Assembly (NCBI GenBank): GCA_016936955.1
Contig: JAFGWW010000299.1
Coordinates: 1-32,263 of the forward strand
DNA: 32,263 nucleotides
Source: Planctomycetota bacterium
Lineage (GTDB): Bacteria > Planctomycetota > SZUA-567
Direction of reading: 5' to 3'
The notes under the pieces: generated by a model
The model's input: the letters and a program-made list of their open reading frames with translations, nothing else
Databases searched by the model: none
Told to the model about the DNA's origin: nothing
Shown here: positions 1 to 13,544 of the stretch, one piece after another
Layout: every line of letters begins with the position of its first letter
Position numbering within the stretch: the first letter of the stretch is position 1
Position numbers and translations under genes: made by a program

Positions 1-398
1 GAATGAAACAAGACCTTGGCACCGGGCTGCTTTATGGCTTCAACATACCAGTTTTTATCGTAACACTCTGCAACGCAGACTGTTACGTCAGGATTGCGAG
101 CCACGTACAGCTCCGCAACCTGACTGGCCATGCGCACATGCTCAAGAGGCCCACGGAACAGAGTCAGATTTACGCGCTTTTTCCGCGGCTTGCGGATCAG
201 GAACGTACCCTTCCCTACCTCACGACGGGCAATATTCTCTTCAGCAAGCGAGTCTAACGCCTTTTTGGCTGTTACTCGGCTTACATTAAAAGTGCTCGCA
301 ATCTCGCGTTCCGAGGGAAGCAGGTCTGTTCCAGACGCTTTCGCCTCATTTAAAAGCTGATTACGGATTACTAAATGTTTCGGTACTCGCTTCGCCAC
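1..398 (-). CDS. GntR-family transcriptional regulator, C-terminus cut by window edge
   Basis: Reading the minus strand from a GTG at 398 gives 132 codons that stay open to the left edge. Residues about 5-70 form a GntR winged helix: the LLPSEREIASTFNVSR segment is the recognition helix region, followed by VGKGTFLIRKP for the wing. After a basic linker the chain continues with NPDVTVCVAECYDKNWY, which resembles the start of an extracellular solute-binding-protein fold used as a sensor; that part is inference because only about 50 residues are visible. The GTG start is supported by a GGGAGG ribosome site about 9 nt upstream and by a near-consensus promoter at 431-459. It is divergent from the secreted beta-helix gene and both promoters hold the same palindrome, so it probably represses itself and that gene until a sugar ligand binds. 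Confidence 0.8.
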   Translation of the reverse strand, partial: MAKRVPKHLVIRNQLLNEAKASGTDLLPSEREIASTFNVSRVTAKKALDSLAEENIARREVGKGTFLIRKPRKKRVNLTLFRGPLEHVRMASQVAELYVARNPDVTVCVAECYDKNWYVEAIKQPGAKVLFH

Positions 399-430: not shown

Positions 431-459
431 ATAATAGTCCAATTGGATACAAATGTCAA
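431..459 (-). promoter_or_regulatory. Sigma-70 promoter of the GntR gene with operator inside the spacer
   Basis: On the minus strand a consensus TTGACA (459-454) is followed by exactly 17 nt and a TATTAT (436-431). The palindrome TCCAATTGGA (438-447) fills the spacer next to the -10. A regulator bound here would block RNA polymerase. The same palindrome recurs in the facing promoter at 582-610. The elements are read directly; binding by the adjacent GntR protein is inferred. Confidence 0.75.
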
Positions 460-581
460 CACGCTACGCTCAACAGAGCAGTTTTATCATTAATTCTGTC
501 GCATATATGCAAAATTACCCCGATATATCATTGTTTTGAGACGGTTGTGCCAAAATATATGCATCCATCTGGAGTTTTTAT

Positions 582-610
582 TTGACTAAGTAATCCAATT
601 GGACTACTTT
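582..610 (+). promoter_or_regulatory. Sigma-70 promoter of the secreted beta-helix gene with operator inside the spacer
   Basis: TTGACT (582-587), 17 nt, TACTTT (605-610). The palindrome TCCAATTGGA lies at 594-603 in the spacer, directly before the -10. The shared block extends to TCCAATTGGACTA and, read in each promoter's own direction, has the same placement as in the GntR gene promoter, which argues for one regulator controlling both. About 95 nt of leader follow before the start codon at 708. Confidence 0.7.
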
Positions 611-707: not shown

Positions 708-3700
708 ATGAGAACGCTCTTGAGTCTGACTGCCTGCGTATTGCTGCTTTTCGGAATGGGTCAAAGCAGTGCGCAGGACTATTACGTTATACAAACGGAA
801 GGAGCTTCAGACGAAAACAGCGGCCTGAAGGAATCGCCATGGAAAACAATTGCCCACGCCGCAGCCACAGCAAAAGCTGGCGATACCGTCCATATCGGTA
901 AAGGAATTTACCGGGACAATTTGAAGGTTATGAATTCTGGCACAAAAGACAATCCTATCACCTTCATGGCAATGGGAGACGGCCAGGTTCTGATCTCTGG
1001 GGCGGATGTAATTGCTGGGTTCAAAAAAGAGGGCAATCTATGGGTGATCAGGCCGTGGAAAGTAAAATTTGGCTGGTACTGGGGGGATGAGTCAACCTAC
1101 CCCGAGGTAGCCAACCCCAATTGCCCGTTCATGTCTGCGGCCAGGCGGGAGAACATCTTCATCAATGGCGTTCCACTGCAATGGGTGCCAAACAAACAGG
1201 CTCTCGCTCCTGGACGCTTCTACTGGAACGGCAAGCCGAACTCGAATGACGGAGAACTGCTTGTCTGGCCCGAAAAAGATATGGACCTGTCGCAAGAGAC
1301 GGTTGAAGTACCCATGCGTGAATGCGTGTTGTCCGGCCCTTGGGGATCCTATCCGAGAGGAATTTCTGAAGTGCGCTCGGCGAAGAAGGAAAACCAGTAC
1401 GCCAAGGCCGACTGGATCAATATCAGGAACATTACCTTTGGATATACGAATGAGGGGTTTGTCACGTCCGGGGCCATAATAAGCGGAGACAACTGGACAC
1501 TTGAGGATTGCGTTTTTGAATACATGAACGCGGGTGGAGTCTGGATTGGTGGCGATGATGCTGTCCTGAAGAGAGTGACAGCCCAATACAACGGCAAGGT
1601 CGGGATTAACGGAAAGTTCAGGGTTGTTCGAGCCTTGCTGGAAGATTGCATAAGCACGCACAATAACCGGAAGTTTTATAAGATCTACTGGGACGCTGGT
1701 GGCCTTAAACTGCATGATGCCCGCGACACGGTTGTTCGCAATTTCATAACCGCCTTTAATTTTGGCTCGTCGCTTTGGTATGACTGCGACTGCATTGGTA
1801 ATAGAGTTGAAAATTCGTTGTCTTTTGGCAATGACGGATTGGGCTTCTTCTATGAGGTTTCAGACAAGGGAACTTTTGTAAACAATGTCTCATTTGGTAA
1901 CGGATGCGGATTCATGTACGCCCACTCCGCAAATGGCCTGATTGAAAACAATGTCGTTGTCGGTTGCAGTTCAGGGTTTATTCTCGGTGGAGACCGGGGT
2001 AAATTCAAAGGCGTCAATACCACTTTCCGCAATAATATCATCATGGAGACGCGCGGACATAATGTCGGCTGGAAATGGAGCAAAAATCCTGACGGGCGCT
2101 CCCAGCAATCAAAGAACATGATTACCCAAAACCTGTTTGCATCCATATACGGCAATAAGGGCTTTGAAATGTACAAGACGTTGCCGGGGCTTGCAGAATT
2201 TGAGTCAGAATACAAAAACGGGTTTGATAATCATCAGATACGCGGGCTGGAGGAAATGGATACGGAAAACCGCAGCAGGCTTAACGCTTCGATGCGCCGC
2301 ACTCTTGAAGGAGTCAGGGCTGTCGAGCCGCGGTTCAACTTGAATATAGATGATGCAAAACTCACGCAGATCTGGGAGCTTGGAGCTGGGGGAAATGTTG
2401 GCGGCTATTGGATAAGCACCACTGATGGCCCGGTTCTGGTATTGGTCATCAATAAAAAAGAGGTGTTTAGCCTTATGTGCGAAGGCGAATGCAAGCCGGT
2501 ATTGTGGGAGTTCCACCATCTGGGTAAGCACCGGATCAACCCCGCTAAAGCATATGGGAAATTATACACATTCGAATCGGAAGCGCGCTTTGCAATAATC
2601 ACTGGCCTCCCGGCGGGGACGGTTCCTCTCAAAGGATTACTACAGGTCAAGGCTTCGAAAGACGGAAAACCAACAAGCGAGATAATTGCAGGGGAGACCG
2701 CGCAGATCTCTGTTACCGTAAAAAATATATTCAGCAAACCCGTAGAATTTTCGGCCAATGGAATCGGACTGGACAAGGCGACATTTACCCTCGATGCGGG
2801 ACAGATCAAAAATCTGGAATTTAATGCATCCCCGGTTGGCGGCACCAGAAGTCTTACATACAAGCTCCACAGCGAAGCACTCGGGGCTCCATACCAAAAG
2901 TCTATTCCTCTCAATGTTGTGAGAAAAGTAAAGGCCAGCGGAACAGGCAGCCAGGAGTATAACATCTCAGTGGATACTGAAGAGCAACGGGACGCAACCG
3001 TCTGGGATGAAACAACCGGAGACAAATGGAAAGGTAAGGCTGACGTATCTGCCCAAGCCGCTGTGACCTATAACAGCAAGAGCATGAGTGTTCATGTAAA
3101 AGTCACGGATGACAAATTGTTCTGCAATAAAAGCGAGTTGGGAGGTGGCGACGGCATTATTGCGTACATCGACACCAGAGCACGGCCTGGACTTCGTTCA
3201 AGCAAGTCTGGTGACGGTGTTTATCGAATCATGGTGCCGGCATCGCGCACAGCCAACTGGTCAGACATACCCGTCAGCCAGAAAAAACCGTTGGTCACCA
3301 ACGGGGATTTCGAGGCAGGCAAAAATGGCTGGTACATTCCCAATGGAAGTAATGTGTCTATCGTCACGGACCATTCCAGCAGCTATGCCCATATTTTAGG
3401 GGAATCCGTTATCCAGCGCGACATCAAGATCAAAAAGGATTGGAAGAAACTGGTCCTGACAGCAAAGGTTCGCTACAAAAAAATCATCCCCGGACAACTG
3501 GGTTGGCATTGCGGGCGCGTGGTTCTTGACTTCAAGAACAATAAAGGCAAACATGCTGGCGGTTGGCCTGAGATGATGGATTTCAAGGGAACACAGGAAA
3601 AGTGGATTACCTTGTCAAAGGAATATGAAATACCGGCAGAAGCAGAGACTGTACGCCTTCAGGCAGGCATGTGGTCCGTAAAGGGCGGTGAGCTTGATGT

Positions 3701-3989
3701 TGATGAAATAACACTGGCGCCAGTCACTGATAATGCCGGAGAAGATACAGAGAGTATTCGCGCCACCGGCAAAAAGTCAGGCTCCGGTTATGAAATTCGC
3801 CTGACAATACCCGCGGGGATGTTCCAGGGTGCTGGTTTTGTAAAAGGGCGGGAATTCGGTTTTAATCTTGCCGTTTGCGATTCTGACCGGCCCGAGAGCA
3901 AGGAACCGGAAACACGCCTTTTCTGGAATGGCAACGGCGGTTCTGTAGATATCTGCCCCAATGAATTCGGACTTTTGATATTGGAGTGA
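708..3989 (+). CDS. Secreted parallel beta-helix protein with Ig-like and interrupted CBM9 domains
   Basis: This 1093-residue protein starts with a signal peptide (about 1-22, hydrophobic core LLSLTACVLLLFG, likely cut after SSA). Residues about 24-75 (ESPWKTIAHAAATAKAGDT) match the DUF1565-like opening of right-handed beta-helix polysaccharide-binding or lyase proteins, and the helix repeats run to about 480 (repeated N-N-V/I-F/S rungs such as VENSLSFGNDG, FVNNVSFGNG). An Ig-like stretch covers about 640-745. A CBM9-like module starts near 750, is broken by a CBM4/9-type jelly roll at about 860-1006 (LVTNGDFEAGKNGWY to DVDEITLAP), and resumes at about 1014 to the end (FGFNLAVCDSD...LFWNGNGG). 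The start is chosen for GGAAAGGA at 693-700. First gene of the run behind the operator promoter; the likely role is binding or cleaving an acidic polysaccharide outside the cytoplasm. The substrate is unknown. Confidence 0.8.
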   Translation: MRTLLSLTACVLLLFGMGQSSAQDYYVIQTEGASDENSGLKESPWKTIAHAAATAKAGDTVHIGKGIYRDNLKVMNSGTKDNPITFMAMGDGQVLISGADVIAGFKKEGNLWVIRPWKVKFGWYWGDESTYPEVANPNCPFMSAARRENIFINGVPLQWVPNKQALAPGRFYWNGKPNSNDGELLVWPEKDMDLSQETVEVPMRECVLSGPWGSYPRGISEVRSAKKENQYAKADWINIRNITFGYTNEGFVTSGAIISGDNWTLEDCVFEYMNAGGVWIGGDDAVLKRVTAQYNGKVGINGKFRVVRALLEDCISTHNNRKFYKIYWDAGGLKLHDARDTVVRNFITAFNFGSSLWYDCDCIGNRVENSLSFGNDGLGFFYEVSDKGTFVNNVSFGNGCGFMYAHSANGLIENNVVVGCSSGFILGGDRGKFKGVNTTFRNNIIMETRGHNVGWKWSKNPDGRSQQSKNMITQNLFASIYGNKGFEMYKTLPGLAEFESEYKNGFDNHQIRGLEEMDTENRSRLNASMRRTLEGVRAVEPRFNLNIDDAKLTQIWELGAGGNVGGYWISTTDGPVLVLVINKKEVFSLMCEGECKPVLWEFHHLGKHRINPAKAYGKLYTFESEARFAIITGLPAGTVPLKGLLQVKASKDGKPTSEIIAGETAQISVTVKNIFSKPVEFSANGIGLDKATFTLDAGQIKNLEFNASPVGGTRSLTYKLHSEALGAPYQKSIPLNVVRKVKASGTGSQEYNISVDTEEQRDATVWDETTGDKWKGKADVSAQAAVTYNSKSMSVHVKVTDDKLFCNKSELGGGDGIIAYIDTRARPGLRSSKSGDGVYRIMVPASRTANWSDIPVSQKKPLVTNGDFEAGKNGWYIPNGSNVSIVTDHSSSYAHILGESVIQRDIKIKKDWKKLVLTAKVRYKKIIPGQLGWHCGRVVLDFKNNKGKHAGGWPEMMDFKGTQEKWITLSKEYEIPAEAETVRLQAGMWSVKGGELDVDEITLAPVTDNAGEDTESIRATGKKSGSGYEIRLTIPAGMFQGAGFVKGREFGFNLAVCDSDRPESKEPETRLFWNGNGGSVDICPNEFGLLILE

Positions 3990-4209
3990 CCTCAACGGTG
4001 TGGACACGACAAGCTTTTATAACGGGCATAAATTTGCAACTAACCGATTTATTTTCGCCTGTCAATAAAGCTGCTGTATACTTAATATTTGATAGAAGCA
4101 GACGTAATTTTAATGATCAACGTATAGCAATATTAGTAACTCGGGATTTTTTATCCGCGACAATGAGTTGCTTATAGCCAAGACCATCGGGTACCTGAAA
4201 GGCGGAACC

Positions 4210-5088
4210 ATGAAACACCATTCATGCCTCGACTCATCTGTCAATAGCAGCAGCAAGAAGAATACCCGCACGCTAAGCATATCACAAGCCTCCCCTTATG
4301 CCCCACCCCATAGAGATATATCTGGCTATCAGTCGAGGCAAAGATCACTGAGAAAAAACAAGATCACAGTGCGGGCATCCATAAAAGCTTTTACCCTGGT
4401 TGAGCTATTGGTCGTTATCGCAATTATCAGCATGTTGACGGTCTTGCTGCTACCGGCTTTGCGTAATGCCGTCACCGGAGCCAGAGCACTGTCATGCCTG
4501 TCCAACCACAAGCAAATCGGACTCGCTTTTCAGTTGTACCTAGAAGAAAACAGAGGCATGATGCCGCGCGGCCAGGATTTTATTAGTCATCAGTCTGATT
4601 ATGTTACTCAAATCCCGAAGTATCTTGATGGCGATAAAAATATCTGGTGTTGCCCTAACGCCACCTATGCCGGCAAAGGGTGGCATTATCTGTCCAATCC
4701 GGCTATCATGCGTGAAATCAGGTCGGCTGACATTCTGGCTGGCGTAGACACTATTCGCTATAGAGATATCGGTCGTTTCACCGAAGTAGTCGTCATGCTT
4801 GACGGAGCCCAATATGACGGCGTAAGTTGCCCTCCCATGGGCAAGTTTATTGACTGGGCCTGGGGGAGCACCTACAGCCCAACCTCAAGCACAAACAACG
4901 AACCGGTTACTCTCGGCCCAAATCTGGATGTATCTACGGCTAAACATTACATACGCTGGCGTGAGCGAGGCACATCAGGAGCCAAGACAGGGGCGGCAAT
5001 TAATGTGCTATTTGCAGATTGGCACGCATCCACCATGGTCTATGGCACTCTTTTACGACATAATATGCGCCCGAATAAAAAGCCATGA
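4210..5088 (+). CDS. Prepilin-like (pseudopilin) protein with long leader, H-X9-DG type C-terminus
   Basis: The 292-residue product carries the class III prepilin signal [16 protein letters not shown] (processing expected between Ala60 and Phe61, with Glu65 at position +5), then a hydrophobic helix and an [22 protein letters not shown] segment typical of the DUF1559/SBP_bac_10-like pseudopilins abundant in Lentisphaerae and Planctomycetes. Near the C-terminus [11 protein letters not shown] is a variant of the H-X9-DG processing-associated motif (DG read as DW). The ATG at 4210 is preferred for AAAGGCGG just upstream; it gives an unusually long, Ser/Arg-rich 60-residue leader. A GTG at 4369 would give a 7-residue leader but has no ribosome site that I can see. 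It follows the beta-helix gene by 220 nt. Such proteins are presumed to be envelope-anchored; the function of this expanded family is not established. Confidence 0.85.
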
Positions 5089-5254
5089 TTGAGCCAAGCT
5101 TTCGCATTCAGAAAACTTATGCGGAGAGCATCATTGCAAAATATGCGCTAGGTCGCTGGGTACGGCTTTCGCTTTCCCCTGCGTAAATGAAAATTTGATA
5201 TATATGGAATTCATCCGCATTGTCGCGGCGAACGGCCAAAGGTTCGCCGGAAGC

Positions 5255-5548
5255 CACTGACAGCATGATTAATCATGAGCGCATGCCAAGTAACCGTCAT
5301 GGCTTGCCGGATAATGAACGGAGACGGCTGCAACTGCATTTTTCAACGGACATGATAGATTGGTGCTTTGCTGGTCTGGTGGCGATTGGGCCTGAAGAAA
5401 AGCATCAAGGCATTATGCAAGCATGGTTATTGACGGTAATGATTTAATGGTGCTGAGCCGCTCCGGAAATGAGAAGGCAAAAAGTCCGCATGACGGCAAC
5501 ATGATCACTCTTCATCGGGTAGAGAATTTCAGAAATCTGGTATACTGA
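5255..5548 (+). pseudogene. C-terminal remnant of a sialidase/BNR-type glycosidase, frameshifted
   Basis: Two overlapping frames together read like the tail of a sialidase-family protein. The first (from about 5255) gives RLQLHFSTDMIDWCFAGLVA and ends near the KHQ codons at about 5404; the second picks up near 5411 with HYASMVIDGNDLMVLSRSG, continues with EKAKSPHDGNMITLHRV, and stops at 5546-5548. The single change of frame at about 5405-5413 and the lack of any N-terminal part mark it as a decayed fragment. It sits between the pseudopilin and the esterase. Family assignment is from memory of the motif style and is moderately sure. Confidence 0.55.
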
Positions 5549-5586
5549 TTACAATGTTCGTCATGGCATCAACACGAAAGGTAATT

Positions 5587-6906
5587 ATGAAACACGTCGC
5601 TTGCTGCATTATATTGCTTCTTTGTATTACCTCTTCTGCTTTTGCCGTGGATGGTGAACCTGCGGCAATTCCTGAATGCAACGTGCGTAATGGGCTTCCA
5701 AACTTTTACAGTAAACTCAAGTCTGGGGAAAAGGTCACGATAGCCTACTTTGGAGGCAGCATCACTGCTCAACCCGGGTACAGAGTAAAGTCTGCCGAAT
5801 GGCTCCACACCAGATATCCCAAAGCAAGCATCGTTGAGGTTAACGCAGCGATTGGGGGCACGGGATCAGACCTCGGGGTCTACCGAATGGACGATGACGT
5901 ATTAATCAATAAGCCTGACATGCTCTTTGTTGAGTTTGCTGTCAATGATGCCCACTCTTCGGAGGAAAGTGTTGTTCATGCAATGGAAGGAATCGTTCGA
6001 AAGGCAATCCGCGCAATACCCGATATTGACATATGCTTTGTATACACGTTCACGCAAGAGCAGTATGACACTTTGGCTAATAACCGGCTGTTCAGTTCGA
6101 TCAAGGCCATGGAAAAGGTTGCTTCCCACTATGGCATTTCCAGCATTCATTTATGGAAGGAACCTGTTGCAATGACCAAGGCCGGTAAGCTGATACTCAA
6201 GGCCCCGCAGGCCAAAGTGGAAGCGGTAGCAGGGAAGAGCCTGGACGGCCTTAAAGCGGAAGATGACAATGGCGCAGAAACCCCCATGCCGTTCTCCAAG
6301 GATGGCACCCATCCATATATCAATACGGGACACAAGCTCTACACAAATGCAATAAAGCGATCTCTACCCATGCTTGATATCGGTACTCCTGCCCCGCATA
6401 CTTTGCCGGAAGCGATAATTGTTCCCACGCTGGAGAAATGTAAAATTTACGGTATCAAACAAAGCATGCTTGATGGCTTCTGGGCTGAAGTCAATAAGGG
6501 CGATGACCGCTCGGGCTTCTTAGAGCGTTTTAAAAGCATGTGGCTTTCCGAATCGCCCGGAGCCAGCATAAGTTTTAAAGTCATGGCAAGGGCCTGTTAC
6601 ATTTATGACATCCTTGGCCCCGATTGCGCTAAAGTACAGATTTATATAGATGGGGAACCGGCTGAAATGCTCGACAGGTTCGATCGCTTTTGTACATTCA
6701 GCCGGATTGCAACCCTGAAGGTTTTTCGTAACAGTAAAAACATCGAGGAGCACGCCGTCAAAATTGTGATTCAGAAAGAGCGACCAGCGAGAAGAAAAAT
6801 ACTGGGGCCATATAGAAGCAGGGAACTGGATAGCAATCCCGGTAAATTTGATGGCACCAAATGGTTTATTGGCGGGATACTTCTTGATGGCGAAATCATC
6901 GAATAG
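5587..6906 (+). CDS. Secreted SGNH/GDSL-family hydrolase (carbohydrate esterase-like)
   Basis: The 439-residue protein has a signal peptide (MKHVACCIILLLCITSSAFA, cut before VDGEP). The SGNH blocks are all present: FGGSIT with nucleophile Ser58, a glycine-rich block II (IGGTGSD, about 89-95), FAVND with Asn120 and Asp121, and DGTHP with Asp239 and His242 completing the triad. About 150 residues after the catalytic part form an extra C-terminal domain. Members of this family in polysaccharide loci remove acetyl or other acyl groups from glycans, so it probably deacylates the substrate handled by the neighbouring glycosidase; the substrate is inferred. The ATG at 5587 is preferred over 5554 because GAAAGG lies just before it and the signal peptide then starts normally. 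Confidence 0.85.
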   Translation: MKHVACCIILLLCITSSAFAVDGEPAAIPECNVRNGLPNFYSKLKSGEKVTIAYFGGSITAQPGYRVKSAEWLHTRYPKASIVEVNAAIGGTGSDLGVYRMDDDVLINKPDMLFVEFAVNDAHSSEESVVHAMEGIVRKAIRAIPDIDICFVYTFTQEQYDTLANNRLFSSIKAMEKVASHYGISSIHLWKEPVAMTKAGKLILKAPQAKVEAVAGKSLDGLKAEDDNGAETPMPFSKDGTHPYINTGHKLYTNAIKRSLPMLDIGTPAPHTLPEAIIVPTLEKCKIYGIKQSMLDGFWAEVNKGDDRSGFLERFKSMWLSESPGASISFKVMARACYIYDILGPDCAKVQIYIDGEPAEMLDRFDRFCTFSRIATLKVFRNSKNIEEHAVKIVIQKERPARRKILGPYRSRELDSNPGKFDGTKWFIGGILLDGEIIE

Positions 6907-6941
6907 AAGTTTAAACCTGCTAAAACTTAACCCTCTCTACA

Positions 6942-7784
6942 ATGGGACATCCTATGCAACGCGTAGCTGTAACCGAGTACTCACATATAGTCTATCCTCC
7001 ATTCAAAGGCATAGACATACGGCGTTATCTGGTTCCTCATACCGGATATTACCATACACATAAACTGCATCAGATCGTAACTGTCCTTGCGGGACGCATA
7101 ACCTTCTGCGATGCGGAAGGTGTGAGTTATGAGTGCAAGGCGGGAGATGCGCTCTTAATTCCGAGCAACGTGTCCCACTCATGGAGCATGGGCAAGCGAA
7201 CCTGCGAAACACTTCAGATTTATCACGATTCACTCAAGATAGATCAATACGGCGAGATCGCGCTTTTTTTTGGCTGTGCAAATCGCGGAATGGTCAAATA
7301 CACCATAGGTGCGGACGAGTTCAATTCTCTGGCGAAAAGAATAAAAAGCGAAGTTACGGCGAAGGCATACAATGGCGGGTTGCTGCTGCATGCTCGATTG
7401 GTTGAATTGCTGGCATTGATCACCCGGCAGTCTCCTGAAGGAATACAGCCTTCTTCCCGCGCACTGGAGATTGTGCGGGAATCGCTTAGCTATATTGAGA
7501 GCAATTTGCGGCATCCGTTAACAGTCGAATTACTGGCAGAGCACGTTCACCTTAGCGCCAGCCGCCTGGCGCATATATTCAAGGAACACACAGGGAAATC
7601 GCCATTGCGTTACGTCAATGATCTTAAAATCGAGCGAGCGTGCAAGCTGATGTTGTATTCGGATATGAATGTGAGCCAAGTTGCAGAATATTACGGGTTT
7701 TCATCAGTCCATTATTTTAGCAGGCTCTTCAAAAAGACCTGCGGTGTGAATCCTACCGAGTTCCTCTCCCGCTTTCGAGAATAG
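6942..7784 (+). CDS. AraC-family transcriptional regulator
   Basis: This 280-residue protein has an N-terminal cupin-type sensor (about 40-95, PHTGYYHTHKLHQIVTVLAG, then GDALLIPSNVSHSW) and a C-terminal pair of helix-turn-helix motifs (about 180-278). The first is LTVELLAEHVHLSASRLAHIFKE; the second is the typical MNVSQVAEYYGFSSVHYFSRLFKK, followed by GVNPTEF. It starts 35 nt after the esterase stop and precedes the GH-A glycosidase, so it is probably the local activator responding to a sugar from the substrate. No clear ribosome site is seen before the ATG at 6942; the ATG at 6954 (MQRVAV) is an alternative. Confidence 0.9.
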   Translation: MGHPMQRVAVTEYSHIVYPPFKGIDIRRYLVPHTGYYHTHKLHQIVTVLAGRITFCDAEGVSYECKAGDALLIPSNVSHSWSMGKRTCETLQIYHDSLKIDQYGEIALFFGCANRGMVKYTIGADEFNSLAKRIKSEVTAKAYNGGLLLHARLVELLALITRQSPEGIQPSSRALEIVRESLSYIESNLRHPLTVELLAEHVHLSASRLAHIFKEHTGKSPLRYVNDLKIERACKLMLYSDMNVSQVAEYYGFSSVHYFSRLFKKTCGVNPTEFLSRFRE

Positions 7785-7895
7785 CAGCAATGTGCAAATA
7801 AACGCAATTCTATCTAACGACAACACATAATATATCGGGTATTGTTCACGCAGCATATGGCTGTGCTGTATACAAAACTACCCGGAGATTGTGAG

Positions 7896-9299
7896 ATGAA
7901 GAGGATTGGCAAATTGCGCATGATGCGGTCTGATGAAATCGAATCATCTGGTATCGGCATTGGATTTGAATGTCTTGACAGGGAGATCTTCGATCCCGAG
8001 AGATGTTACGACAAGCTCGCAGAGATAGGAGTCAAGCACGCTCGTTGCCAGACCGGATGGCTCAGGTGCGAGAAAGAGAAAGGCGTCTATGACTTCGACT
8101 GGCTGGACAAGATTGTTGACAACTTGCTACAGCGCGGCATCAAGCCATGGTTTAATGTATCCTACGGCAATCCGCTTTACATGGATGGTGGCGAGAGTAA
8201 TGCCTGCGTAGGGATGGTGCCGCTGTACTATGGTGATGAGACGCTTCAGGCATGGAGGCAATATATAAATGCTTTGGCAATGCATTATCGCGATCGAGTT
8301 TCTCATTTTGAAATCTGGAATGAACCAGAAGGAATCGATTTCTGGCAACCAAAGGCGCCTGATCCATTAGAGTACGCCAGATTCATCCGGGTCACCGCAC
8401 CTTTGATTAAAGATGCAATTCCCGACGCGAAGATAGGCGCCTGTTCAAACTTCGTATTCTATCCCGAATACATGGTTCCTCTATTTCGCAGCGGGATTGC
8501 TGAGTTGCTCTCATTCTACTGTGTCCATGCCTATCGTATCCAACCGGAACTGCACTATGCCAGAGAATTGAGGGCATTGAGGAAACTCATGGATTGCAAT
8601 GGGGGAGAACATGTCGACATATGGCAGGGCGAATCGGGATACGCATCACATTTTCCTGAGAATCACTGGCTCGGCACATATGTGCGCGAGAGCGAAATCA
8701 ATCAAGCGAAATGGCTGCTTCGGAGATTTTTTACCGATTGCTACCATGGCGCAAAGATGACCTCATTCTTCCAGATGGTTGACATGACAGCCAAACCATA
8801 TCAAAAAGCGGTCAATACTGTTCAATCGCCCGCACGCCATGGCATTCTGAATGGCAATACTTACACACCAAAAATGGCGTACAACTGCCTGGGAAATGTC
8901 GCTGCAATTCTGGATGCGGATACGAAACCAGCCGATCTTTTCGCCAAGCTAAGCCTTACTAAAGCATTTCCCAAATCAATGCGGACATCCAGACTCCCTG
9001 ATATATCGGCCACGGTTTTGGGATTTGAAAGAAACGGGTACCCGCTCTACGCTTACTATATTCCAGAGGATGTTCAGATGGAGTACGGGAAAGTTAATGG
9101 CGTAACGTTAGAAGTCCTGAAAGATGAATGTTTACAAAACATCAACGACCCGGTACTGGTCGATATGCTTGATGGTGAGATATTTTCCTTCGCTCCTCAC
9201 CACGACGGCAAGCATGCACTATGCTTTACGGAGCTTCCAATAACAGATTATCCAGTCATCATCACTGATCGAATGGCACTTGAAAACAGGATCGCCTAG
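7896..9299 (+). CDS. Clan GH-A glycoside hydrolase (GH39-like)
   Basis: The 467-residue TIM-barrel enzyme has the two clan GH-A catalytic glutamates: FEIWNEPEG gives the acid/base Glu143 and DIWQGESGY the nucleophile Glu246. HAYR near 211 and KPWFNVSYGNP near 84 are further barrel-strand signatures. GH39 (xylosidase/iduronidase-type) is the closest match I recognise, but GH5-like families cannot be excluded, so the bond it cleaves is open. No signal peptide is seen, so it should act in the cytoplasm on imported oligosaccharides. The ATG at 7896 follows CGGAGA by about 7 nt; in-frame TTG 7842 and ATG 7857 lack such a site. It is coupled to the transporter gene, whose ribosome site overlaps this stop codon. 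Confidence 0.8.
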   Translation: MKRIGKLRMMRSDEIESSGIGIGFECLDREIFDPERCYDKLAEIGVKHARCQTGWLRCEKEKGVYDFDWLDKIVDNLLQRGIKPWFNVSYGNPLYMDGGESNACVGMVPLYYGDETLQAWRQYINALAMHYRDRVSHFEIWNEPEGIDFWQPKAPDPLEYARFIRVTAPLIKDAIPDAKIGACSNFVFYPEYMVPLFRSGIAELLSFYCVHAYRIQPELHYARELRALRKLMDCNGGEHVDIWQGESGYASHFPENHWLGTYVRESEINQAKWLLRRFFTDCYHGAKMTSFFQMVDMTAKPYQKAVNTVQSPARHGILNGNTYTPKMAYNCLGNVAAILDADTKPADLFAKLSLTKAFPKSMRTSRLPDISATVLGFERNGYPLYAYYIPEDVQMEYGKVNGVTLEVLKDECLQNINDPVLVDMLDGEIFSFAPHHDGKHALCFTELPITDYPVIITDRMALENRIA

Positions 9300-9308
9300 G
9301 AGGCCAAT

Positions 9309-10577
9309 GTGAGCGCAAGCATTGCCGGCACAGTTGAAATATCCAAATCGGTCCGCACGTGGTCCCAGCAGACCTGTGTACGACACAGCTTCTGGAACGG
9401 CCTGGGCGTTGGCTTTCTGTATGGAGATATCATTGCTGTCATCGCCCTATTCTACGGCGCCAAAGAATTGCACATGAGCCTTCTTTTCGGTGTAATATAT
9501 ATGTCCCTTCCTGCAGCATTACTGGCCCCGCTTTTTTTAGCGGGACGGGATTGCACTACGATCTGGCGCTCCATGTGGCTTTTGCGAACGCTTATAATAC
9601 CTCTGTACTTTCTATTGCCTATACTTCCAGCACCCTATCGCGCCTGGTTCATTGTCGGCATCTACGCCGCATTCTGTATTTTACGTTCGATAGGCGTTTC
9701 GGCGTCCCTGCCGGTAATGCGCAGAGTTTCAACATGCAGCGATCGTCAGGCTTTATTCGGTCGGCACATGCAGGCATTCATGATTGCATGTATGTTTGTA
9801 ACCATCACGGCATATGCTGTTCTTGAAGGTGGATTATTCGCGGAAGAGCTGACTCGCTATCAGGTTTTGATCGCCTTGGGGGGCATCTTTTCTTTGGTGT
9901 CAACGGTCTATCTCTACAAACTGCCACATACCGGCCCCCTTGAATCCATATCGATGCGGGAGCTGCTTGCCATCCTTACTAACGTAATGCGAGACCATCA
10001 TTGCCGCCACCTGATCCTGATAACTCTTGGCAATACTTTTATCCTTGTGCTATGTGGACAAGTTATTCCGCACATGAAGAGCGCGATGAAAATAAATAGT
10101 GGTGGTATCGTGCTTCTGTGCTCAAGTGGACTATTCGCGGCCGCCATCGCCATGCATGTATTCAGGAATTTCGGCAGTAGATTGAATACATTCAAGCTTT
10201 TGGCCTACCTGCATGCAGCCATAGCCTGCAGTATGATTTTTCTTGCCTTATCCGGAGGCTTTCTCCCTTCGGGAAATGTTATCGTATTTATTCCCGCCAT
10301 CGCCCTGCTCTATGTCAGCAAGAGTTCAGCAGTTGCGATCATCACAAGCCTCCAGGCCGATAGCCTTCCCACAATAAGGCAATATGCCTATTCTGCCATA
10401 TTCCTGGTTGCTTCCGCCTTCTCTGCCGCTTTGGCGGTCTGTGTGGTTTTTGTCGTGCAGAATGAACTTGGCACCAATACCAGCTGCTTACCCGCCTACG
10501 TCTTCTGCATTTGCGCTGCTGCATCGATGGGACTATGCTTATTTGTATTAAGAATATCCAGAGGATGCACTACCTGA
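9309..10577 (+). CDS. MFS-like multi-pass membrane transporter
   Basis: 422 residues, almost entirely hydrophobic, with about 12 predicted membrane spans and short charged loops (for example FLAGRDCTTIWR, MRRVSTCSDRQALFGRHMQ). The overall layout matches major facilitator sugar transporters, although the classical loop 2-3 signature is not clear. The start is a GTG at 9309: AGGAGG at 9298-9303 overlaps the TAG of the glycosidase gene, and the overlapping ATG at 9307 is followed at once by TGA. Tight coupling to a cytoplasmic glycosidase suggests it imports that enzyme's oligosaccharide; the substrate is inferred. Confidence 0.75.
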   Translation: MSASIAGTVEISKSVRTWSQQTCVRHSFWNGLGVGFLYGDIIAVIALFYGAKELHMSLLFGVIYMSLPAALLAPLFLAGRDCTTIWRSMWLLRTLIIPLYFLLPILPAPYRAWFIVGIYAAFCILRSIGVSASLPVMRRVSTCSDRQALFGRHMQAFMIACMFVTITAYAVLEGGLFAEELTRYQVLIALGGIFSLVSTVYLYKLPHTGPLESISMRELLAILTNVMRDHHCRHLILITLGNTFILVLCGQVIPHMKSAMKINSGGIVLLCSSGLFAAAIAMHVFRNFGSRLNTFKLLAYLHAAIACSMIFLALSGGFLPSGNVIVFIPAIALLYVSKSSAVAIITSLQADSLPTIRQYAYSAIFLVASAFSAALAVCVVFVVQNELGTNTSCLPAYVFCICAAASMGLCLFVLRISRGCTT

Positions 10578-10711
10578 TTGACGGCATTTTGCTAATGCCA
10601 AGACGCGCTGCAACTCTTTTGCCCGGTTCAATTCGTCCGCAGGTCAAATGCCGCCAGCACATTTCCATGGCGTGCATATAAAACACTGTCGCTGATGACC
10701 GGATGTGACCG

Positions 10712-11061
10712 ATGCTCCTTGGAACCGAATTTAATCTGGAAGAGTCAACGAGCTACGACAGAAGCGGTCTATGGTACAACTCCAAATATCCAAACTATTT
10801 CAGCAATATAGATTCATCGTGCCAGCTAAGAAATTCACCGCCTTATCATGTCCATCTCGTTTATTGCTTATGGTCGATACCTGCCGCACATGGTACTGGG
10901 ATTCTTATCAGATTTCATGGAACTGGACAAGAGCTCCTGCGTATCGTCATAATGAGCGCCCCAACATCCTGTTTGCCGACAGACGTGTGTCGTCCACAAG
11001 CGATCTGCACACTGATTACTTGGCCAATCAATTGTTCCATAATGCTAGCGGCGTGCCATAA
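10712..11061 (+). pseudogene. C-terminal remnant of a pseudopilin, frameshifted
   Basis: A first frame reads SGLWYNSKYPNYFSNIDSS (from about 10758) and a second, after a shift near 10815-10830, continues KFTALSCPSRLLLMVD, TWYWDSYQISWNWTRAP and then RHNERPNILFADRRVSS, stopping at 11061. The last part is the H-X9-DG motif of pseudopilins with DG changed to DR. The FTLVELL N-terminus is missing. From 10578 to 10711 I see nothing that can be assigned. It lies just downstream of the transporter, at the place where the other loci carry intact pseudopilin genes. Confidence 0.6.
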
Positions 11062-11205
11062 GGAGGCTGGCAATAATCTGATCCCTTAAAACGACCCCGG
11101 ACTGTAGTTTCAAAGTAATGCCCTTAAGCGATAGTTGGCCTCCATACCATATAATGGACATGGAATTTAAACCCCCATGTAAAGGATTAAACTTAGCATT
11201 AATTC

Positions 11206-11249
11206 TTGTGACGAATTTGTGACGAATCGAACGCATTTTCGTCACAAAT
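11206..11249. repeat. Clustered TTGTGACGAA direct and inverted repeats
   Basis: TTGTGACGAA occurs at 11206-11215 and again within 11216-11226, and its reverse complement TTCGTCACAAA at 11238-11248. The second and third copies form a perfect 12-bp inverted repeat (11215-11226 with 11238-11249) around an 11-nt loop. The cluster is about 130 nt from the tRNA-His fragment and recombinase tail, so arm-type recombinase sites are one possibility; an operator or a hairpin are others. Confidence 0.6.
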
Positions 11250-11348
11250 AGGCACTTTTAAGCATAATATGCACACCCAGTTTGTGTCCAGTTTAACGCC
11301 TATAAGTCCTGTAAAGACAGCGAGATAAGTGATTTATGCGGTGAAGTT

Positions 11349-11726
11349 TTAGTAGGTGATGTTCTCATAAAAACCTGCTTGTGGCTCTGGAGGTCGGGGG
11401 TTCAAATCCCCTTTCTCTCCCCAGTTAATTTTCGCCGAAAGTCCTGATATTAAAGGGTTTTCCGCGTTTTTTGTTTCCGGCCGGGAAACAGCCGATTTAC
11501 TCAAATTTACTCCATTTTTCTGGATCTTAACCTTATTTCGAGTCAAATAGCGAGTCGATTTTTCTTGGGTCTTTTCGGTCGATATGGATGCAGCTAACCC
11601 GAAGTCCGGCAGCCTGGCAATGGCTTCGGACTTCTCTTCCAGCTTGATGTGAGCATAGCACTTCATGGTCAGGTTTATGTCGGAATGGCGCATAAGCCGC
11701 TGGGCTTCCTGCGGGTAACCTCGTAA
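11349..11726 (-). pseudogene. Tyrosine recombinase (integrase) C-terminal remnant overlapping the tRNA fragment
   Basis: The minus strand reads GYPQEAQRLMRHSDINL followed by TMKCYAHI, which is the end of a phage-type integrase catalytic domain, then a charged tail and WGEKGDLNPRPPEPQ encoded across the tRNA-His fragment, ending at 11349. That tail peptide is typical of integrases whose 3' end lies antisense to their tRNA target. An in-frame stop at 11730-11732 limits it on the N-terminal side; the core-binding domain and the first catalytic residues are gone. It cannot be active. Confidence 0.75.
11379..11423 (+). other. 3' fragment of tRNA-His (likely attachment site)
   Basis: The bases read as a tRNA from the anticodon loop to CCA: loop TTGTGGC with anticodon GTG (11381-11383), 3' anticodon strand TCTGG, variable loop AGGTC, T-arm GGGGG / TTCAAAT / CCCCT, acceptor strand TTCTCTC, then C73 and CCA at 11421-11423. 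A C at position 73 is characteristic of tRNA-His, agreeing with the GTG anticodon. Upstream, CCTGC (11374-11378) cannot pair with TCTGG, so the 5' half is missing. Such 3' tRNA pieces are the classical footprint of integration by tyrosine recombinases, and a recombinase tail overlaps it antisense. Confidence 0.7.
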
Positions 11727-11852
11727 TATTCATTTTCTTGAAACCTTGCAAATGCAGTTTAATTGCTACATAATGGGTATGTGCTGGCCGTGGGCGGTCA
11801 ATCATTGCATAACTAAGTGTTTTTTTGACGGGTTTGATTGAAGGAAATCTCT

Positions 11853-13544
11853 ATGACATTTGATCCTCCTGCGTTGCCTGAAGAGCAAAATCCTGAAGGT
11901 GAGGGAACAGGGGATGTGCTTTCGGAAAACAAGCCCGAGCCTCTGGAAGCGGTGAATAAAATCATCCCGGATGTCCCTGGTCGCAAGGCTCTAACTGCAT
12001 TATTGCTGGTGGTGCTATTTGACTATTTCCTATACCGCGGCAGCGGTGGCTTGGGATATGCTCTTCTCATGCTTATTACTGCGCCGCTTCTTTACCACGC
12101 ACACACCCAAGCACCAGGAAAGTTCTTTTCGCTTCCTTTGGGGTTGCTCCTGATCTTGGCGATAAAGACTCTCTGGCAATGCGATTTATTTACACCGTGG
12201 CTCGGTTTCTTTGTTCTGGCGGCGCTGGCCCTTTCCCTCACGGGATCTCTTTCCTGCATCATAGATGCGTCAAAGTCCATCGCATTTTCCGTGCTTCGCA
12301 GTCCGATCATAGAAGCCGCGTTCCTGCGCGTTTTCGCAAGGTTGCGGCTTGCGCGAAAACTTGGTGCAATAGACGGATGGCCAATACTGGTTCCGCTACT
12401 TGTGATCGCCATCTTTCTGACAGTTTTCGGTTTGGGAAATCCAATCATCGCCTCTTGGTTGTCCACGGCTGGAGAGTGGTTCTCGCATCACATGCATAAT
12501 TTTACAGACTTGCTTCCATCTGGCTGGGAAGTTGCATTTTGGATTGCCTCTGGTCTGATTGCGGCGGTCTGGCTTTGTCCCTTCAAAACCGAAGCTAAGC
12601 AACTAAAAGATTTGCTTGGCCATGATGAGGACCTGCCGGAAGAATATAACATTAATGAAGAGGTAGAACGGCGTTCTCTTATGGCGCGAAATACATTGAT
12701 AGCCGTGAACCTGCTATTTGTTGCTTACAATGCAGTAGATGTTAACTACCTTTGGATCCAACAGTCTCTTCCAGAAGGAATCAGCTATTCAGAATATGCC
12801 ATTACCGGTACGGTATGGTTGACCGTAGCGCTAGCCCTTACTTCTTTCGTGTTGGGCGTTATTTTTTCAGGCGACTTGAACTTCCATACACGTACTCCCC
12901 GGCTACGCTTTTTCGCTTGGATATGGGCCGTGCAAAATCTCCTTCTCGCTGTTTTTGCTTATCACCGTCTATCTCTTTATGTATCGTTCAATGGACTGAC
13001 AAGATGGCGCACAGTTGGCGCTTTCGGCATTACGCTTGTCATCTTCGGTCTTCTGATCGTTGTGCGGAAGATTCTCAATAAGAAAAGCTTTCTCTGGATG
13101 GCGCGGCGTCAACTTGTTGCTTTTGCGCTGACAGTGTTCGCCTTAGGCATTTTTCCTATTGATTACATTGCTCATACCGTTAATACTCGGCAGATTCTCG
13201 CGGGTGAAATTGGCCCGGCTTATCAGGTAGTGAATCAACCTAAATCGGCAGAAGGTTTATCTCCATTGATTCTGCTCTTGGATTCGGAGGATGTTACGGT
13301 CCGTGAAGGTGTGGCGGGTGTGCTATTGAAGGAACTAGAAATTCTTCGGGAATACGACCGCATTAATACGCGCTGGACCTATAGTGAACTCTCGCGGCGC
13401 TGGGCTTTGCAGAAGCTTACCGAAGCCGAACCGCGTTTGCGGGAATTAATCCCGGACGGCAACTGGCAGAAACGAATTGATGCGCTGGAGGCTTGTACGA
13501 GTGGTTATGAATGGCCGGGGAGAACTGTGGAGTGGAGGCGTTGA
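11853..13544 (+). CDS. Polytopic membrane protein, DUF4173-like
   Basis: 563 residues: an acidic soluble N-terminus (about 1-45), about 12 membrane spans from 46 to 450, a cytoplasmic loop LLGHDEDLPEEYNINEEVERRS near 255, and a soluble C-terminal domain of about 110 residues. The segment YHRLSLYVSFNGLTRWR (about 370-386) is the signature I associate with DUF4173/DUF4153 membrane proteins, whose function is unknown. The ATG at 11853 follows AAGGAA by 6 nt. It begins about 130 nt after the integrase relic, so it may be chromosomal flank or old cargo of the lost element. No partner gene is visible. Confidence 0.7.
   Translation: MTFDPPALPEEQNPEGEGTGDVLSENKPEPLEAVNKIIPDVPGRKALTALLLVVLFDYFLYRGSGGLGYALLMLITAPLLYHAHTQAPGKFFSLPLGLLLILAIKTLWQCDLFTPWLGFFVLAALALSLTGSLSCIIDASKSIAFSVLRSPIIEAAFLRVFARLRLARKLGAIDGWPILVPLLVIAIFLTVFGLGNPIIASWLSTAGEWFSHHMHNFTDLLPSGWEVAFWIASGLIAAVWLCPFKTEAKQLKDLLGHDEDLPEEYNINEEVERRSLMARNTLIAVNLLFVAYNAVDVNYLWIQQSLPEGISYSEYAITGTVWLTVALALTSFVLGVIFSGDLNFHTRTPRLRFFAWIWAVQNLLLAVFAYHRLSLYVSFNGLTRWRTVGAFGITLVIFGLLIVVRKILNKKSFLWMARRQLVAFALTVFALGIFPIDYIAHTVNTRQILAGEIGPAYQVVNQPKSAEGLSPLILLLDSEDVTVREGVAGVLLKELEILREYDRINTRWTYSELSRRWALQKLTEAEPRLRELIPDGNWQKRIDALEACTSGYEWPGRTVEWRR

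Follow-up and report, generated by a model that had tools for sequence, protein, structure and literature searches.

A palindrome repeated in the spacers of two divergent promoters: candidate operators of a GntR-type regulator with a probable solute-binding sensor

The Locus and Its Two Divergent Promoters

The stretch of DNA analysed here (the window) is the entire contig C114, 32,263 nucleotides long, of the assembly G000, a MAG of 3.66 Mb that is 61% complete. Its first gene (1–398, minus strand, GTG start at 398) is cut by the contig end and encodes the N-terminal 132 residues of a GntR-type regulator (P0002), which matches the winged HTH model of Pfam GntR (PF00392) with an E-value of 2.7e-12, above the cut-off. 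Divergently from it, at 708–3989 on the plus strand, lies a gene for a predicted secreted beta-helix protein of 1093 residues (Pfam Beta_helix, 7e-10), the N-terminus of which matches the solved xylosidase 3vst (E 2.8e-11) and which also has a weak CBM9-like region (CBM9_1, 1.8e-4, below its cut-off). Further downstream are genes for prepilin-type, GDSL esterase-like, and GH39 beta-xylosidase-like proteins, along with an AraC-type regulator (6942–7784). This gene content suggests that the locus may have a role in the use of a xylan-type polysaccharide.

Each of the two divergent genes is preceded by a sigma70-like promoter. The promoter of the regulator (431–459, minus strand) is strong, with 11 of the 12 consensus positions: TTGACA (459–454), a 17-nt spacer (453–437), and TATTAT (436–431), which on the minus strand reads TTGACA-TTTGTATCCAATTGGAC-TATTAT. 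That of the beta-helix gene (582–610, plus strand) has the same geometry, with TTGACT (582–587), a 17-nt spacer (588–604), and TACTTT (605–610), and reads TTGACT-AAGTAATCCAATTGGAC-TACTTT. It is the weaker of the two, its -10 box being poor, and its score of 8/12 falls under the threshold of the promoter scanner (at least 9/12), which is why it does not appear in the scanner's output.

A Palindrome Shared by Both Spacers

The palindrome TCCAATTGGA occurs in two exact copies in the window, at 438–447 and at 594–603, and both copies lie inside the 17-nt spacers of these promoters, each separated from its -10 box by a single C. The claim of the earlier note that the same palindrome lies beside the -10 box in both promoters is thus borne out, and the string TCCAATTGGACTA, which is common to the two, consists of the palindrome, this C, and the TA of the -10 box. 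Outside the palindrome and the C, the two spacers coincide in just one letter, and the pair is therefore not a simple duplicated promoter. The symmetry extends further around the second copy: a repeat search returned the extended palindrome AAGTAATCCAATTGGACTACTT (588–609), with one mismatched pair, and no other 20-mer of the intergenic region is as symmetric as 589–608 (9 of 10 pairs matched), which is centred on the same copy. MerR-type promoters have spacers of 19–20 nt, and an operator of that type was ruled out on the basis of the normal 17-nt length of both spacers.

The same letters can be read as perfect 14-nt inverted repeats (435–448 and 593–606), and one might suppose that a recombinase acts on these repeats to invert the promoter segment between them, given that the arms are 100% complementary and 144 nt apart. 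The arms are, however, accounted for by the palindrome, the C, and letters of the -10 boxes, and since the core of the repeat is itself palindromic, inversion would merely swap the two -35 boxes and yield equivalent promoters. Moreover, no recombinase family was found among the window proteins scanned, which represent part of the open frames. We consider an invertible segment hardly credible.

The two copies are 156 bp apart from start to start, close to the 155 nt estimated earlier, which corresponds to a computed 14.7–15.0 helical turns. This spacing is compatible with looping, one of the two options named in the earlier note beside independent repression, but does not demonstrate it.

The intergenic region contains a second palindrome, GCATATATGC, at 501–510 between the two -35 boxes, and an inverted copy of ATATATGC at 555–562, 46 nt from it. 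It is possible that this pair is a site for an activator or a second regulator.

Expectation by Chance and Distribution in the Genome

In simulated 309-bp sequences that kept the dinucleotide make-up, two identical 10-bp palindromes arose in 18 cases out of 40,000 (about 5e-4), and TCCAATTGGA is the only 10-bp palindrome repeated within the 32-kb window. The promoter geometry shared by the two copies is rarer still by chance: both promoter scores were reached at one common geometry around planted palindromes in 0 or 1 of 60,000 simulations, depending on the criterion, a test that is post hoc because the promoters were picked after the palindromes had been seen. For the weaker beta-helix promoter alone, at fixed geometry, the probability is 0.9%.

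A search of the whole assembly by pattern matching found three exact copies of TCCAATTGGA, as against five of a reversed control pattern. This number, which is no higher than chance would give, might be taken to mean that the repetition is a coincidence without function; yet two of the three copies are at this locus, within one 309-bp region and at the same promoter geometry, so that coincidence appears very improbable. The third copy is on contig C175, within an open frame of 851 residues, and in the 61% complete assembly no exact copy was found in non-coding DNA beyond the pair described here. The palindrome is therefore not frequent at random positions, as a genome search proposed earlier might have revealed, and, since the remaining exact copy falls within a coding gene, it is to be regarded as a private, local operator pair rather than as the motif of a regulon.

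Sites with at most one mismatch occur at 26 places in the assembly, nearly all within open frames of at least 100 residues. Apart from the pair described here, there are three exceptions: TCCAATTTGA (C13:8556), which is outside any such frame, and two sites in short frames, of which, judged by eye, the one at C407:14875 resembles a terminator hairpin and the one at C460:308 a ribosome-binding region. The corresponding number for the reversed control pattern is 123, and it is possible that CAATTG-like words are under-represented in this genome.

Comparison with Known GntR Operators

The usual consensus of GntR operators is NyGTNxACNy, with GT and AC 2–4 nt apart, and exceptions such as BioR are known (PMC4494728). 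TCCAATTGGA has CC/GG where GT/AC would be usual, and the closest GntR-like reading is a half-kept GT-N8-AC (GTCCAATTGGAT). A symmetric site with GT and AC at the canonical distance of 2–4 nt is absent from the entire intergenic region, so the palindrome remains the best candidate for an operator there. Among the literature matches listed for the palindrome string (titles and abstracts), there was no GntR operator.

The arrangement of the sites is a familiar one. Double sites are common in GntR divergons, and where the distance between the sites grows with the length of the intergenic region, each site is believed to regulate the operon that it belongs to (PMC4494728). In the account of Suvorova et al., this kind of layout is found with regulators of the FadR and HutC types, where the double sites are separate and each one presumably governs the operon closest to it (PMC4494728). 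As in those divergons, the regulator here is divergent from a structural gene, and one palindromic site is present in two copies, one near each gene; the differences lie in the core of the site, NyGTNxACNy there and TCCAATTGGA here, and in the sensor, which here is probably of the solute-binding type.

The departure from the consensus (PMC4494728) raises the question of whether another regulator, for example one of LacI type or the AraC-type protein encoded at 6942–7784, controls both promoters through these sites. The genome does encode further regulators with a GntR-type HTH, and the AraC-type gene is nearby. A distant regulator, however, would usually have more sites or a site in its own promoter, and a regulon search of the 61% complete assembly found no further exact promoter copy; moreover, the regulator gene nearest to both sites is the divergent GntR gene itself. 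Control by another regulator is thus unlikely, though clearly less so than coincidence.

The Regulator and Its Paralogue

The earlier note described the solute-binding sensor as apparently fused, but of the part that follows the HTH, which is itself complete, the window retains no more than about 57 residues. Support for a fusion comes from a complete paralogue in the same genome (C42:5116-6546, 476 residues), which is 64% identical over the 132 residues of the regulator and which, like it, has an N-terminal winged HTH of the GntR superfamily (PF00392, above the cut-off), followed by matches to SBP_bac_8 (5e-15) and SBP_bac_1 (1e-7). Since the homology does not end with the HTH but reaches the beginning of the SBP portion, the regulator of the window is likely to be a GntR HTH fused to an SBP_bac_8-type domain. 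Its HTH has one Arg in PSER and another in VSR, which, matched by eye, correspond to G-contacting positions in FadR and, in the case of VSR, also in AraR (PMC4494728).

The chimeric nature of such a protein is reminiscent of the AraR subfamily (Bacillus subtilis), in which a GntR HTH is joined to a binding-protein-like sensor, namely a LacI/GalR-type C-terminal domain, and which controls sugar and polysaccharide genes. The paralogue's sensor, however, matches the ABC solute-binding type (SBP_bac_8/SBP_bac_1) instead, and no LacI-type model matched in the paralogue, the C-terminus of the window regulator being missing. The palindrome is also unlike the AraR operator. As for the HutC type, the paralogue has no match to the UTRA domain characteristic of its C-terminus, and NCBIfam HutC-type models covered the HTH alone, with scores far below the cut-offs.

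Upstream of the paralogue, the HTH of which is nearly identical, no such palindrome was found. Its gene sits between prepilin-type genes (N_methyl/DUF1559) and has no divergent promoter.

Proposed Mechanism

The identical placement of the two palindromes, their rarity, their location in promoters, and an adjacent gene of repressor type all agree, and for this reason an operator function is the best explanation of the pair. We infer from the sequence that both copies are, quite probably, operators bound by the adjacent GntR-SBP regulator, which would repress both the gene that encodes it and the beta-helix gene transcribed in the other direction. The earlier proposal of an operator for the GntR protein holds as the best reading, but its main weakness is that the palindrome does not follow the canonical GntR consensus (PMC4494728). 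The lack of such a palindrome upstream of the paralogue, the failure to find an orthologous divergon, and the poor -10 box of the beta-helix promoter also count against it.

Bound at either copy, a dimer of the regulator would occupy the stretch between the -35 and -10 boxes of the promoter concerned and, being beside the -10 box, would keep RNA polymerase off, so that one protein would repress both itself and the beta-helix gene. Release would follow when a ligand, probably a sugar or an oligosaccharide, binds to the solute-binding-type domain in the cytoplasm. The GH39 beta-xylosidase-like and GDSL esterase-like proteins encoded downstream provide a carbohydrate setting, which is in keeping with this reading. 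The sites would act mainly one per promoter, with cooperation by looping being possible, and the locus is most likely a locally autoregulated divergon. Such a layout is already well documented for GntR regulators; the regulator fusion is less usual, and the operator core is non-canonical. If the proposed mechanism is correct, a GntR-SBP regulator gains an operator that can be tested directly and is linked to a secreted carbohydrate-active protein, within a layout that is itself ordinary.

GntR-SBP Regulators in Other Genomes

The combination of a GntR HTH with an SBP domain was found in 2 of the 392 genomes sampled from the phylum, with at most four candidates scored per genome, and a literature search under GntR and solute-binding terms found no described fusion of this kind. 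Tentatively, these proteins might represent a rare one-component class in which a GntR HTH is combined with an ABC-type solute-binding domain as a cytoplasmic sensor, and which, with the non-canonical operator TCCAATTGGA, would place a polysaccharide-degradation locus under paired spacer operators. No orthologous divergon was found among the relatives, the class, the family, the phylum sample (at most four candidates per genome, which makes the negative outcome there less firm), and the collections of genome contigs and viral contigs.

The homologue in the genome G281 is 33–34% identical, with an SBP_bac_8 match slightly under the Pfam cut-off. Its gene, which lies in the region 769-13541 of G281:C46, has the same direction as the neighbouring genes, with no divergon; these neighbours are prepilin-type genes and a gene for a CBM9 protein of 1030 residues, beyond which lies a fucosidase-like gene, whose product resembles an alpha-L-fucosidase. 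The same kinds of neighbour thus recur with the GntR-SBP regulator.
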